Positions 991 to 33,138 of a stretch of 41,292 nucleotides of DNA are shown piece after piece; within the stretch, counting starts at the first letter, position 1, and each line of letters starts with the position of its first letter. Both the position numbers and the translations under genes were made by a program. Source of the DNA: Loigolactobacillus iwatensis (lineage in GTDB: Bacteria; Bacillota; Bacilli; Lactobacillales; Lactobacillaceae); the NCBI RefSeq assembly GCF_003950295.1, contig NZ_RHNP01000027.1:1-41292 (forward strand), read 5' to 3'. The notes beneath the pieces were generated by a model, which was not told the origin of the DNA, ran no database searches, and worked only from the letters and a program-made list of their open reading frames with translations.

Positions 991-1376
991 TATTTCAACT
1001 CACTTTAATTTTGTTTGTCCACTTCCAGTATGTCAGAAATTCATTTTATTTGCAGTCAATATGGAACAGTAAAACTGATTCTGTGAATTTTACAAAAAAT
1101 AGTTCAAGCACGTCTAAAAATTATTGTTTCCAATCCGATTAATTTTATTTATACAAGTGCTCAGAACTCAAACATTAACCGAACAGGACTCCTTTTCAGC
1201 TACGTTTACATCAGTGTTCAATCAGAGAACACGAATAAAAGTGGTTCCCAAAAATGCCTCTCCCCAATGCTTAGGCCGTGTTTACGGGAGTGTACAATAT
1301 AATAAATCATTTATGATTTTTTAACTAATTGGCCAGAATTGCTGAGTAAAGGCCACGTACTTTTTAAACGCGCTAG
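991..1376. other. Intergenic region without a convincing gene
   Basis: This 386-bp gap lies between yitT and the CDF gene. A 66-codon plus-strand frame (1124-1324) has no ribosome binding site, looks unlike a known protein and has a composition typical of AT-rich spacer. The promoter of yitT must lie here. A TTGACT hexamer is present on the minus strand, but I see no well-spaced -10. No strong terminator for the CDF gene is visible. Confidence 0.5.
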
Positions 1377-2258
1377 TTAAATACAATTATCCGAAGTTTC
1401 TTGAGTAACTTTGCCTAATTCAGGTTGAATCGTAACGTGGTTAATAGCAAACTTAGCCATCAGCTCTTGATTTAAATTCTCTAGTAATTCATTATTATTG
1501 GCTAATTCAGTTCGAACAATGTGGACAGTCAAAGCAGTGTCAGTGGTTCCTATCGCCCAAATGTGTAAATCATGGATTGCCTTGACTTCAGGATGCGCTT
1601 CGATAGCCTGCTTCACTTCAACGAGATCAATTGACGCTGGCACCGCTGCCAAGGCCAAATTGAGTGCATCCCGTAACAGTCCCCAAGTCCCAAGGAGAAT
1701 GAGCAACGCAATCAGTAGGCTAATTAGCGGATCAAGCCACGTCCAACCTGTAACTAGCATCAAGAACCCCGCAAGAACAACACCAATTGAAACACCAGCA
1801 TCGGCCGCCATATGCAAAAAGGCACCTTTAATATTCAAATCTTTTTTCCGGCCGGACATAAATAACAACGCGGTAAATCCATTAATTAATACACCGATTG
1901 CCGCAACAATAATGACTGGCCAACCAGCAACTGACGCCGGTTGATTAAAGCGCTGAATGGCCTCTGTTGCTATTCCCCCAACCGCAATTAAAAGAAAAAT
2001 TGCGTTTAGTAAAGCCGCAAGAATAGACGAACTTTTATAGCCATAGGTATAGCGTTGATTAGAATTTTTGCCACTCAACCAAACAGCAATCCAGGAAACG
2101 GCAAGACCAAGGACGTCACTAAGATTATGCCCGGCATCAGCAATTAGCGCTAACGAATTACTAGTAACGCCATAGCCGACTTCAATAATAATAAAAAGTA
2201 AATTTAAAAAAACACCGATTTTAAATGCTTTGCTGTACGCCATTTGGCCCGTTTGCAT
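1377..2258 (-). CDS. czcD: CDF-family heavy-metal (Zn/Cd/Co) efflux protein
   Basis: Cation diffusion facilitator, 293 residues from the chosen start. Six membrane segments carry the two HxxxD-type metal sites: HNLSD in TM2 (inside IADAGHNLSDVLG) and HMAAD in TM5. A cytoplasmic C-terminal domain follows (about 205-290, containing HDLHIW). It is expected to exchange Zn(II), and possibly Cd(II) or Co(II), for protons. The frame opens at a TTG at 2273, but the ATG at 2258 is preceded by GAGGTG at good distance and is the likelier start. The gene is monocistronic with its own operator-like palindrome at 2282-2305. No regulator gene is adjacent. Confidence 0.9.
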   Translation of the reverse strand: MQTGQMAYSKAFKIGVFLNLLFIIIEVGYGVTSNSLALIADAGHNLSDVLGLAVSWIAVWLSGKNSNQRYTYGYKSSSILAALLNAIFLLIAVGGIATEAIQRFNQPASVAGWPVIIVAAIGVLINGFTALLFMSGRKKDLNIKGAFLHMAADAGVSIGVVLAGFLMLVTGWTWLDPLISLLIALLILLGTWGLLRDALNLALAAVPASIDLVEVKQAIEAHPEVKAIHDLHIWAIGTTDTALTVHIVRTELANNNELLENLNQELMAKFAINHVTIQPELGKVTQETSDNCI

Positions 2259-12301: not shown

Positions 12302-12344
12302 TAAAAAAAGGGTTGTCACTCAAATAAATGAGTAACAACCCTTT
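12302..12344 (-). terminator. Terminator after the cold-shock gene
   Basis: AAAGGGTTGT-x-ACTC pairs with GAGT-x-ACAACCCTTT around a 7-base loop, followed on the minus strand by TTTTTTTATT. Confidence 0.85.
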
Positions 12345-12365
12345 CAAGTTACTTAATAACTATAA

Positions 12366-12566
12366 TTAGTTCTTAGTAACGTTTGAAGCTTGTGGTCCAC
12401 GGTCGCTTTGTTCGATATCAAAGTTAACGCTCTGGCCTTCGTCTAATGACTTGTAGCCGTCGCCTTGGATAGCTGAGAAATGTACGAATACATCTGTACC
12501 ACTATCAGCTGTGATAAAACCGTAACCTTTGTCTGCGTTAAACCATTTTACTGTACCATGTTCCAT
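12366..12566 (-). CDS. Cold-shock protein (CspA family)
   Basis: 66 residues, a single cold-shock domain. RNP1 is KGYGFI (13-18) and RNP2 is VFVHF (26-30), with the usual aromatic nucleic-acid face (W8, F9, Y15, F17). It binds single-stranded RNA/DNA as a chaperone. An in-frame TTG 13 codons upstream extends the frame, but the ATG at 12566 has GGAGG at ideal distance and gives the family length. The leader upstream (12567-12720) is long and contains AAAGAG...CTCTTT, consistent with a structured csp leader. Confidence 0.95.
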
Positions 12567-12742
12567 AAGTGAAACCTCCAGTGCTTTTGCACAAAAATTT
12601 TGCATTTATCAAGTGAAACTAAAGAGGATTGCACTTAATGGAACTTGGCGCTCTTTAAAGTCATCATTATTAAATACATGAGTCTAGCTTAACAACTAAT
12701 CCGATAAAAAGCAACTAATTTTGCTAATTATATTGAACTAAT

Positions 12743-29893: not shown

Positions 29894-31813
29894 TTAGGCG
29901 TGGGATACTTCTGATTGTTTGGTAGCTGTTTGTTGCTTAGAGCTGCGCGGTCGGTACTGAATCAAGCGCATTGCATTAAAAATAACGACTAAGATACTGG
30001 CTTCATGAACAAACATCCCACTAGCCATGTAAATGTAACCGAAGATCAAGCCAATGAGTAAGAAAACAACGGTCCCAATGGCAATGATGATGTTCTCGCG
30101 AGTATTTAAAACTGTCTTTTTGGCCAAGCCATACGCGTGCACTAGTTCGGCAAAGCTGGAACGCATTAACACAATATCGGACGTTTCAACGGCGACATCC
30201 GTGCCACCGCCCATGGCAATACCAATATCGGCAGTTGCAATTGAAGGACTATCATTGATCCCATCACCGATGAAAGCAACTGTTCGGCCCGCAGCCTTAA
30301 ACTGTTTAACAAATTTCACTTTATCCTCAGGCAATAAATTGGCGTGAACTTCATCAATTCCTAATTGCTCGGCAACGTAATTAGCAGTAATCTGATTGTC
30401 CCCGGTCAGCATAACCAAATGTTTAATCCCCATTTGCTTTAACTGCGCCAAAGCTGGCCGCACATTGTCCCGGACAACATCCGAGACACCGATAATCTGC
30501 TGAATGACCTGATCGACTGCCACAATCACTGTCGAGCTGCCTTCAGATTGTAATTGGTGTAAATCAGCCAACTGTGAGGTGGTTAATTCAACCTGATTAG
30601 CGGTCATCATTTTTTGATTGCCGACTAACAACTGGTGATCAGAAACTGTGGCGCTAACCCCTTGTCCCTTGACTGTCGTGCTATTAGTGACGGCCAAATT
30701 ATCAAAATCGATTTGTTTATTAGTTGCGTAATCAGTGATTGCCTTACCTAACGGATGATCAGAAAGACTCTCAATTTTGGCGACGAGCGCGGACACCAGC
30801 TTGGCATCGGCCGCGTAGTTCTTGACCGCAGAAACTTCAGTTGTTCCCTTAGTCAAGGTTCCCGTTTTATCAAAGACTAATGTATCCACTTTAGCGAAGG
30901 TATCCACAACCTCGCCACCTTTAATCAAAACACCATTCTTGGCACCATTACCGATCCCAGCAACGTTAGAAACTGGCGCACCGATAACCAAAGCACCTGG
31001 GCAACCTAGAACCAGAACCGTGATTGCCAAACGAAAATCCCGGGAAATCAGACCAACGATTAAAGCAATTATAATAACTGCAGGTGTGTAGTAAGTGGCA
31101 AACCGATCAATAAATTTCTCAGCGTGGGATTTGGTGTCCTGGGCGTCCTCAACTAACTCAATAATTTTGGCAAAAGTGGTGTCATCACCAACTTTAGTGG
31201 CCCGAATCTGTAAGGTTCCATTATCGAGAATTGTTCCAGAGAAAACGGCATCCTTTTCCCGTTTAGTCACTAGCTTTGACTCACCAGTAACACTGGCCTC
31301 ATTTAAATAGCCAGCACCATCAACAATATCGCCATCAACTGGGACTTGCGCGCCAGTTTTAACCAAGACGACATCACCTTCGTCAACATCATCAACGTCC
31401 GTCTCAACCGTTGTCCCATCATCCTGAACAACTAAGGCGGTGGTTGGGGCCATTTCAGTCAACGATTTAATTGATTGGCGCGTTCTGGCCAAAGTTTTCT
31501 CTTCTAGAAAGCCACCAAACAAGAAAAGAAAGGTAACAATTGCTGACTCATTGTACTCTTGAATGATGAAAGCACCGACTACCGCAATACTGACTAGTAG
31601 TTCAATGCTGATCGTCTTAACGCGCAAAGATTCATACGCGCGAATGATAATTGGCACCGCCGCTATAATCGAAGCGATAATAAACGCCACCGTATACAAT
31701 GTGTGCAACCCTAGCCAACTTGCAATAAAACCAATGGCAATTAAAATCGCCGTTGCAATCGTAATATTGTTCGTGTTCTTCTGAATAAAACGTTCAAACT
31801 TCATCTTAGTCAC
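29894..31813 (-). CDS. P1B-type heavy-metal ATPase with atypical CPG membrane motif
   Basis: 639 residues. TGES (176-179) in the actuator, DKTGTLTKG with Asp315, SDHPLG in the nucleotide domain and GDGINDSP in the hinge are all intact, so it should be an active transporter. No N-terminal metal-binding domain; the first helix begins near residue 17. The membrane metal motif is CPG (271-273, GCPGALVIGAPV) instead of CPC, CPH or SPC, so the metal cannot be inferred from the motif. The linked HMA chaperone points to a soft metal. RBS AAAGGAG. Confidence 0.88.
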   Translation of the reverse strand: MTKMKFERFIQKNTNNITIATAILIAIGFIASWLGLHTLYTVAFIIASIIAAVPIIIRAYESLRVKTISIELLVSIAVVGAFIIQEYNESAIVTFLFLFGGFLEEKTLARTRQSIKSLTEMAPTTALVVQDDGTTVETDVDDVDEGDVVLVKTGAQVPVDGDIVDGAGYLNEASVTGESKLVTKREKDAVFSGTILDNGTLQIRATKVGDDTTFAKIIELVEDAQDTKSHAEKFIDRFATYYTPAVIIIALIVGLISRDFRLAITVLVLGCPGALVIGAPVSNVAGIGNGAKNGVLIKGGEVVDTFAKVDTLVFDKTGTLTKGTTEVSAVKNYAADAKLVSALVAKIESLSDHPLGKAITDYATNKQIDFDNLAVTNSTTVKGQGVSATVSDHQLLVGNQKMMTANQVELTTSQLADLHQLQSEGSSTVIVAVDQVIQQIIGVSDVVRDNVRPALAQLKQMGIKHLVMLTGDNQITANYVAEQLGIDEVHANLLPEDKVKFVKQFKAAGRTVAFIGDGINDSPSIATADIGIAMGGGTDVAVETSDIVLMRSSFAELVHAYGLAKKTVLNTRENIIIAIGTVVFLLIGLIFGYIYMASGMFVHEASILVVIFNAMRLIQYRPRSSKQQTATKQSEVSHA

Positions 31814-32111
31814 TCCTTTAATAAAATACCCTTATCGATTGAATGACTTTAGTATAGTGAGGTTTTGTTCAGTTTAACTTGATCACCATCAAGTTTTGAC
31901 CAAAATAATTTAAAAGCGGTTAATTTGAGCACAACAATGCCTAGCTAGTAAGGTCAAACAGGTTTCCACTAAATTAGTCAGGTGAATATTAGTAAAGGTA
32001 TTTGCCAAACACGGCTAGTGGGATGTAGCGCTCATATTTAATATATCGTTACTAAAAATAATGCTTAGGCCGCTTGGCTACTGAATTCCACGTGGGCAGA
32101 TTTGGTTAGGT
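31814..32111. other. Upstream region of the metal ATPase
   Basis: 31814-31900 holds the ATPase promoter. 31901-32111 contains no gene. A possible plus-strand promoter (TTGACC 31896-31901, 17 bp, GTTAAT) overlaps the FNR box and points toward the 398-bp element. CCACGTGG (about 32088) and CCACTA...TAGTGG are further small inverted repeats. Confidence 0.4.
31851..31892 (-). promoter_or_regulatory. FNR/CRP-type box and promoter of the metal ATPase
   Basis: TTGATGGTGATCAA (31879-31892), extended to AACTTGAT-N4-ATCAAGTT, is centred at -41.5 relative to TATACT (31851-31856). The distance from box to -10 and the following TATACTAAAG are the same as at the HMA promoter, while the sequence in between differs. 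That is strong evidence for a shared activator. Confidence 0.7.
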
Positions 32112-32139
32112 TCCATTCCGGCGCTGGCGTATGGAACGC

Positions 32140-32262
32140 GTGCGACTTGGACTTGCCGGATTTCGGCTTAGTCCAATCGACAACGGGAAACAAGTCCTGT
32201 TTAGCGAATATGTTCTAGTAATTAATACTTGCTAAAATTAGTTGTTAAGAATGAGCGACAGT
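32140..32262 (+). repeat. Structured direct repeat, copy A
   Basis: 123 bp, aligns without gaps to 32381-32503 with about 98 identities (80%). Four hairpins: TTGGACT/AGTCCAA with GCCG/CGGC (32147-32176); AAACA/TGTTT (32188-32202); TAGTAA/TTGCTA, 7-base loop (32216-32234); GTTGTT/AGCGAC, 7-base loop (32241-32259). Several pairs are G-U on the plus strand. Confidence 0.75.
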
Positions 32263-32380
32263 GGCGCGTTGACAAGCTTATTTTCTTTCCGATTAAACCC
32301 ACCGGAAAAGAAAATGGATCTTGTCAATCACGCAAGGTACTAAATGACCACAATTCGGTCATCAAGTACCTTCGACACGG

Positions 32381-32503
32381 GTGCGACTTGAACTTGGCGG
32401 TCTTTGCCTTAGTTCAATCGACAACGGGAAGCGAGTTTTGTTTAGCGAATAGGAACTAGCAACTGATACTTGCTAGAAAGTGTTGTTGAGAACGAGTAAC
32501 AGT
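32381..32503 (+). repeat. Structured direct repeat, copy B
   Basis: Differences from copy A preserve pairing. TTGGACT/AGTCCAA becomes TTGAACT/AGTTCAA, and GCCG/CGGC becomes GGC/GCC (C-G to G-C). TAGTAA/TTGCTA becomes CTAGCAA/TTGCTAG (32456-32476). GTTGTT/AGCGAC becomes GTTGTT/AGTAAC (32482-32500). The stem at 32429-32443 is kept by two G-U pairs. The pattern is that of selection on RNA structure read from the plus strand. Confidence 0.75.
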
Positions 32504-32636
32504 GATACGCCAGCGCCTCCATTCCACCTTGGCAGTGGTTGAACTCTGATTATTGATTAATTTAATTGTTTAGTTAGTACACAATTGAATAGGAACCACA
32601 GTTTTATGGTTGACGATGCACTAGTCAAGAACTCAC

Positions 32637-32993
32637 CTACAGCCAACCAGCAACCCAAACACCTAAGTAGGCTAGCCCAACACCTAACGCAGTAGACAAT
32701 ATTAAGTACTGCAGCAATGAATACCACTGTTCCCTTCGTTGGAAGATGACTAGCTCGTTCATCAAAGTTGAAAAAGTGGTGAGCCCACCTAAAACACCAG
32801 TACTAAATAGTAGGTGATTAATTGAAGTGGCCGGATTAAGGCTTAATAATCCGATTAAGAAGCTGCCAACTAAATTAATTCCAAATGTTGCGATTGGGAA
32901 GCGAATATTTGCAACTCGTTTGACCCAATTACTGATTGTAAAGCGGATTACCGCTCCAATTGCCGCACCTAAACCAACCAACATAAATGCCAT
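32637..32993 (-). CDS. crcB: CrcB/FluC fluoride ion channel subunit
   Basis: 118 residues, four membrane helices. The family motifs are GAAIGAVIRF (residues 6-15), ATFGINLVGSFLIG (about 35-48, with the conserved Asn) and GVLGGLTTFSTLMNE (about 66-80, the TTFST fluoride-track motif). It exports fluoride as a dual-topology dimer or a heterodimer with the second CrcB. The open frame extends 30 codons upstream, but the ATG at 32993 has GGGGGAAG at good distance. Last gene of the fluoride operon, 145 bp after the other crcB. Confidence 0.93.
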   Translation of the reverse strand: MAFMLVGLGAAIGAVIRFTISNWVKRVANIRFPIATFGINLVGSFLIGLLSLNPATSINHLLFSTGVLGGLTTFSTLMNELVIFQRREQWYSLLQYLILSTALGVGLAYLGVWVAGWL

Positions 32994-33138
32994 TTTCGCT
33001 TCCCCCTTTTTTAATGACGGCAAAAGAATTGTGCCGCGTGAACTGAATACTTTTTGCAAATGCGTTTGCCCTAAATTGATCAAAAACCGTTAATTAAAAT
33101 TGGCAGCAAAGTACGCCGAAGTATCTTTTCGATACGTG

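Follow-up and report, generated by a model that had tools for sequence, protein, structure and literature searches.

The window, that is, the whole stretch of 41,292 nucleotides of Loigolactobacillus iwatensis analysed here, holds an element at about 32015-32624, between two minus-strand genes, one encoding a P-type ATPase (29894-31813) and the other CrcB (32637-33083). The crcB gene is 98% identical to that of Loigolactobacillus backii JCM 18665. The left end of the element is a terminal inverted repeat (TIR; 32015-32042, plus strand) that begins with CTAG and has one mismatch to the 28-bp pattern CTAGTGnnnYGTAGCGnnCATnTTTAAA. The right end (32612-32624, minus strand) is degenerate, with GACGATGCACTAG where other copies have CTAGTGCATCGT; it was recognised by eye against the TIR rows and was unmatched by the pattern search itself. 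Farther in, a perfect 13-nt inverted repeat (32120-32132 and 32505-32517, given on the plus strand) makes up the two strands of a stem named P1. It encloses two direct repeats, 32136-32263 and 32377-32504, which are 80% identical over 128 nt with about 25 differences. Both the direct repeats and the 13-bp ends had been reported in a first-pass annotation of this DNA, and both are present.

Each direct repeat includes a copy of a smaller repeat of ~121 bp, here named unit A. The first copy (32141-32261, plus strand; nhmmer match 32141-32263) reads TGCGACTT...GACAG and is followed by TG, and the second lies at 32382-32502 (plus strand; nhmmer match 32382-32504). Hairpin 1 of the two units, at 32143-32179 and 32384-32420 on the plus strand, was matched by R1, our covariance model of this hairpin, at 32141-32186 (74.9 bits) and 32382-32427 (72.4 bits). 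Two middle hairpins on the plus strand, M1 (32269-32327) and M2 (32334-32372), separate the direct repeats.

Two other features of the window are recorded here. Directly left of the element, positions 31954-32014 are another dispersed repeat of ~60 bp, found in at least about 39 further places in the window's own genome (G000) and at least about 37 in a second genome of the genus (G007), with none among the 40 candidates scored per genome in six other genus genomes. A cspA thermoregulator (RF01766, 94.2 bits) lies at 12309-12705 on the minus strand.

Dispersal and ends of the larger element

A BLASTN search of G000 with positions 32080-32560 gave 46 matches, ten of them longer than 115 nt. When 60 genomes were searched, the window's own included, eight matched: G000, six of the seven other genomes of the genus and, weakly, G034 from another genus. 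One of the matching genomes (G001) was reached only via a 39-nt hairpin, and G006 was the sole one of the seven other genus genomes with no match. The phage and plasmid collections also had no match to the element. At all 14 own-genome loci the element lies outside open reading frames of at least 80 amino acids, with overlaps of at most 50 nt at the ends (the limits are partly estimated), and the flanking genes are found in every orientation.

With up to three mismatches allowed, the TIR pattern was found 19 times in G000, 29 times in G007 and twice in G003, and the reversed-pattern control gave no match. No match was obtained in the five other genus genomes (three of eight positive), although arms occur in more of them. 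By arm we mean the part enclosed by the TIRs, made up of stem P1, the middle hairpins M1 and M2 and, immediately within P1, two slots. Many relatives of the element carry two arms in inverted orientation. From TIR to TIR, the elements range from a bare palindrome of 72 bp (L177) up to 967 bp (L018), and L027 is a long palindrome.

One element (L026) sits inside the CTAG of another repeat, and CTAG is thus the likely target; a duplicated CTAG target is indistinguishable from an element end that itself holds CTAG. The interrupted sequence belongs to a terminator-like repeat (GCACGTTCTAGAG..AATGATCG...AGGCC; L164 and the flanks of L026 and L017); L026, and probably L017 too, shows the larger element inside its CTAG. 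Five elements were tested via their joined flanks: three are present at the same place in G007 and two are absent. Both vacant sites are altered, one with a 10-nt deletion and the other with an apparent end remnant, and therefore deletion is as possible as insertion.

No transposase was found between inward-facing pairs among the TIR matches in the genus genomes, nor was a parent insertion sequence found. The Y1 transposase (PF01797), present in two of the eight genus genomes, was rejected as mobiliser, since none was detected in G000. The only gene enclosed by two TIR matches (L176) encodes a TnpB/Cas12f-like protein. Similar proteins of ~510-590 amino acids, with a C-terminal zinc domain, were aligned from six genus genomes (L199 on G000:C78, L200, L201, L202, L203 and L206). 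Their scores are far below the NCBIfam cut-offs (41 versus 450 bits for Cas12f2), and it is possible that the protein is a domesticated relative of TnpB. The gene lies beside the element in G000 and G007 only. It was set aside as a partner, since the repeat patterns are missing near it at L201, L202, L203 and L206, in four other genus genomes, and G006 has the gene without matching elements.

Unit A is an optional module found in two slots

The HMM search for unit A gave 75 matches, whole and partial, in 61 sources. Nine own-genome copies of the larger element were aligned, of which six (L018 to L023) have no unit, two carry just the left unit and the one in the window carries both. In the six copies the left arm, the middle and the right arm are joined directly, with a clean join at the site of the slot-1 unit. 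Removal of the units left 44 full-length arms fit for alignment: 21 have no unit, 7 have slot 1 (left) only, 7 have slot 2 (right) only and 9 have both, a tally that is not a census because the loci were picked by query match and the orthologues of G000 and G007 were counted apart. All 42 units within arm matches have the same orientation and 41 of them lie at core offset 29-32 or 146-154; the remaining one, in L043, is poorly aligned. A TG is common to both junctions, ACGC^GTG^GCGCG in slot 1 and ACAGC^TG^ATACG in slot 2.

The unit is also found outside arms, both solo and in tandem in G005 and solo in L066. In another genus (G071), empty and filled host repeats lie side by side, and the filled one holds 57 nt with a hairpin, placed before TG, as judged by eye. 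A further dispersed family (L030-L035; AAGCAG..CTGCGGTTGCCATGTTTCAACTTGG...) carries the first hairpin of unit A, with its stem changed yet paired. A protein encoded by the minus strand of unit A was weighed by eye and dropped, since the copies break the frame.

Evidence for the separate presence of a unit comes from L. backii JCM 18665 (L076), which aligns with the window over 1385 nt at 96.5% and 1098 nt at 94.4% identity; at this same locus the second unit is precisely missing. It is likewise missing in G007, which is probably the same assembly as that of L076, and therefore the two count as one comparison only. In the unit tree, unit 1 of the window clusters with slot-1 units of G000 and G007, and unit 2 with slot-2 units of G007. 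The two units thus belong to different clusters, which rules out their recent tandem duplication; they are also present or absent independently, and the internal tandem duplication proposed in the first-pass annotation finds no support. The base adjoining unit 2 of the window is G, against C in the empty site. The same G occurs in the G007 copies L036 and L038, at other loci; its occurrence in two-unit copies elsewhere suits conversion.

Folding and covariation

The 418-nt stretch of the window folds at -149.4 kcal/mol on the plus strand (z -6.1 versus shuffles) and at -136.7 kcal/mol on the minus strand (z -5.6), and the plus strand folded as DNA reaches z -7.6. As both strands fold better than shuffles, folding names no strand. 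In the 44 arms the closing stem P1 is of three types, GGCGCTGGCGTAT, GGCGCCAGTGGAC and GGGGCGCGAGGAC, each with its matching complement. Pairing statistics were computed on 39 of these arms, after five near-identical rows were dropped: 97.9% of cells pair, against a shuffle mean of 88.4% with none of 500 shuffles as high, and against 35-45% for slid partners. A two-sided change was seen in 23 of the 50 pairs (shuffle mean 16.4), and both M1 and M2 keep their pairing with two-sided changes among arms. This supports a conserved multibranch fold with the 13-bp ends as its closing stem, as first proposed. Under a phylogeny-aware null, for which our own script and not R-scape was used, none of the 50 arm pairs reached E≤0.05, because the changes are few and common within subfamilies; the two top-ranking column pairs do belong to the structure.

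For unit A the consensus alignment comprised 61 of the 75 matches, with partial and family C matches left out. Of the four hairpins once described as persisting in each repeat, hairpin 1 is the single one kept in the RNAalifold consensus of these 61 copies. Its two compensatory changes between the repeats of the window, G-C to A-T in the lower stem and C-G to G-C in the upper stem, do exist. A wider set of 92 hairpin 1 matches, 80 of them distinct, was collected from the 64 sources searched; 97.9% of its cells are paired and two-sided changes occur in 8 of 14 pairs, in an alignment that is biased towards the model, having been fitted to it. In the same fitted alignment two of the 14 pairs pass the phylogeny-aware null at E≤0.05, with values of 0.0025 and 0.0325, and every one of the five top-ranking column pairs belongs to the structure. 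Under this null, the covariation called for by the earlier proposal was thus found in homologues of hairpin 1 and not in the arms, the latter counting against that proposal. Moreover, the 5' bulge of hairpin 1 and its unpaired flanks (TG before, ACA after) are kept while the stem bases vary.

The G-U pairs had been taken as marking the plus strand as the RNA. In the 39 arms there are 30 G-U versus 27 A-C cells, one always-G-U pair being set aside. The 80 distinct copies of hairpin 1 have 48 G-U versus 14 A-C cells, 36 of the G-U cells belonging to the loop-closing pair; without that pair the counts are 12 and 14, and the strand argument does not hold.

Reach of hairpin 1 and other hairpin repeats

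The consensus unit query matched 8 of 151 genomes of the family, in 4 of 40 genera. Across the order, R1 matched 17 of 395 genomes from 10 of the 81 genera at E≤0.01; matches below 1e-6 are found in nine genomes of four genera and the remainder are doubtful. These relatives in other genera place hairpin 1 in a larger group of repeats with bulged hairpins. In a genus of another family (g40), four genomes (L219, L221, L222 and L223) have one or two R1 matches in the same gap, after the same preceding gene, and where paired the matches are about 100 nt apart. Judged by eye, the genes concerned may encode an FMN-binding protein and ApbE. The hairpin 1 relatives of g40 are conserved between the same two genes and could have a function of their own there.

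Another hairpin repeat, with a TTTTGCCACAAGAATGG core, has 64 matches in G005 (C1; L163 and L184) and 27 in G000. Some of those in G005 are in tandem, with a spacing of 98-108 bp, and 58 of the 64 are oriented on the plus strand in the first half of the contig and on the minus strand in the second, if base 1 is assumed to be the origin. Near the G005 tandem array, positions 1331-1401 (plus strand) of L163 match the group II intron family (RF00029, 49.3 bits); apart from this match, the Rfam search of 12 related loci gave nothing.

Interpretation

According to these data the element is likely to be a copy of a mobile repeat of Loigolactobacillus that is non-coding, non-autonomous, palindromic and modular, similar in kind to BOX elements and MITEs. 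The copies are dispersed and have terminal repeats, the two slots hold units in a single orientation, unit A is precisely present or absent, and pairing is conserved. As for how such a structure might arise, the larger element would be placed at CTAG targets by a transposase acting in trans. Each slot optionally holds unit A, a smaller second repeat that is also found alone elsewhere, and the unit may enter directly before TG; recombination between dispersed copies would then spread or remove units. The fold is probably of importance in the single-stranded DNA form of the repeat, while it is being mobilised, or when neighbouring genes are transcribed through it, rather than in a plus-strand RNA of its own.

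Among the alternatives, it is conceivable, at rather low probability, that the paired changes arise at the level of the DNA, through hairpin-templated correction of imperfect palindromes together with gene conversion between copies, which would keep the arms complementary with no selection on the fold. In favour of this are the balance of G-U and A-C mismatches, long palindromes like L027 and the bare 72-bp L177, and the failure of every arm pair under the phylogeny-aware null. However, correction alone does not predict that the bulge and the TG and ACA flanks of hairpin 1 are kept while its stem changes, and two of the 14 hairpin 1 pairs do pass that null.

The view of the first-pass annotation, a new class of large structured plus-strand RNA with optional domains, now appears improbable. 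Arm pairing that persists in all three types of closing stem would fit a functional RNA as well, as would the excess of paired cells and of two-sided changes over shuffles, the covariation of hairpin 1, the fold energy of the plus strand (z -6.1) and the hairpin 1 kept between the same two genes in the four g40 genomes; against this, the minus strand folds nearly equally well, none of the 50 arm pairs is significant, the genomic places are variable and there is no G-U asymmetry beyond the loop-closing pair. Sigma-70-type promoter-like sites numbered 0, with 1.9 expected from shuffles, and the neighbouring genes are on the minus strand. Moreover, as many relatives have inverted arm pairs, a transcript of those would hold both senses. 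The argument for a plus-strand RNA thus fails on the balance of G-U and A-C, the minus-strand neighbours, the lack of a promoter-like site and the folding of both strands, and the locus reads as a member of a dispersed family of TIR-bearing repeats. At gathering scores no Rfam family matched within the element, and at permissive scores (E≤10) positions 31800-32700 gave just three chance-like matches, with E from 1.1 to 4.2, none of them to OLE, GOLLD, ROOL or HEARO.

It is equally hard to credit that the units regulate their neighbours, as a recruited leader or 3' structure in a minus-strand read-through RNA between crcB and the P-type ATPase gene: the minus strand does fold (z -5.6) and both neighbours lie on it, but the neighbours of the 14 own-genome copies are oriented every way and unit 2 is missing in L. 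backii.

A broader and more tentative proposal may also be made. Unit A and its short relatives might form a Lactobacillales superfamily of hairpin mobile units that insert right before TG, in one orientation and in fixed slots of other folded repeats, by a single-strand mechanism that dispenses with a Y1 transposase, the host fold presenting the slot.

The tempting reading of the locus as a new large RNA is corrected by this analysis, as a modular mobile repeat can yield both strong folding and paired changes. In addition, the natural series of copies with no unit, with one in either slot and with two offers a way to work out how a hairpin-dependent mobile unit chooses its target. If an enzyme is found, it may represent a new way to move hairpin DNA in lactic-acid bacteria.

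Comparison with known systems

In the open-licence literature we recognised no description of this repeat. The large RNAs OLE, GOLLD, ROOL and HEARO resemble it in size and multibranch folding; unlike them, it occurs as mobile dispersed copies with terminal inverted repeats, and none of them is among the Rfam matches. With REP/RAYT systems it shares a small bulged hairpin and tandem and inverted arrangements. However, unit A begins with TGCGACTT and by eye has no GTAG tag at the foot of its hairpin, and no Y1 transposase was detected in the genome of the window. The CGTC REPs are likewise described as having no dedicated transposase (PMC3733652).

Terminal inverted repeats, a non-coding sequence, a strong fold and many copies are traits of MITEs as well; here, in contrast, no parent insertion sequence was found and a second mobile unit is nested at fixed slots. 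The BOX elements of Streptococcus pneumoniae have the arrangement boxA-boxB(n)-boxC, and they too are dispersed, non-coding, modular and folded, with terminal inverted repeats, with an internal module that folds on itself and is absent or repeated, and with insertions into other repeats (PMC3049150). The likeness drawn here is one of organisation, and the optional module differs in being ~121 bp long, in occupying two separate slots and not one tandem block, and in occurring also solo outside. The closest known kind is thus that of the BOX/MITE-type modular repeats, among which this one is unusual in having no Y1 transposase detected in its own genome, in the apparent insertion of its unit before TG and in its two-slot modularity.
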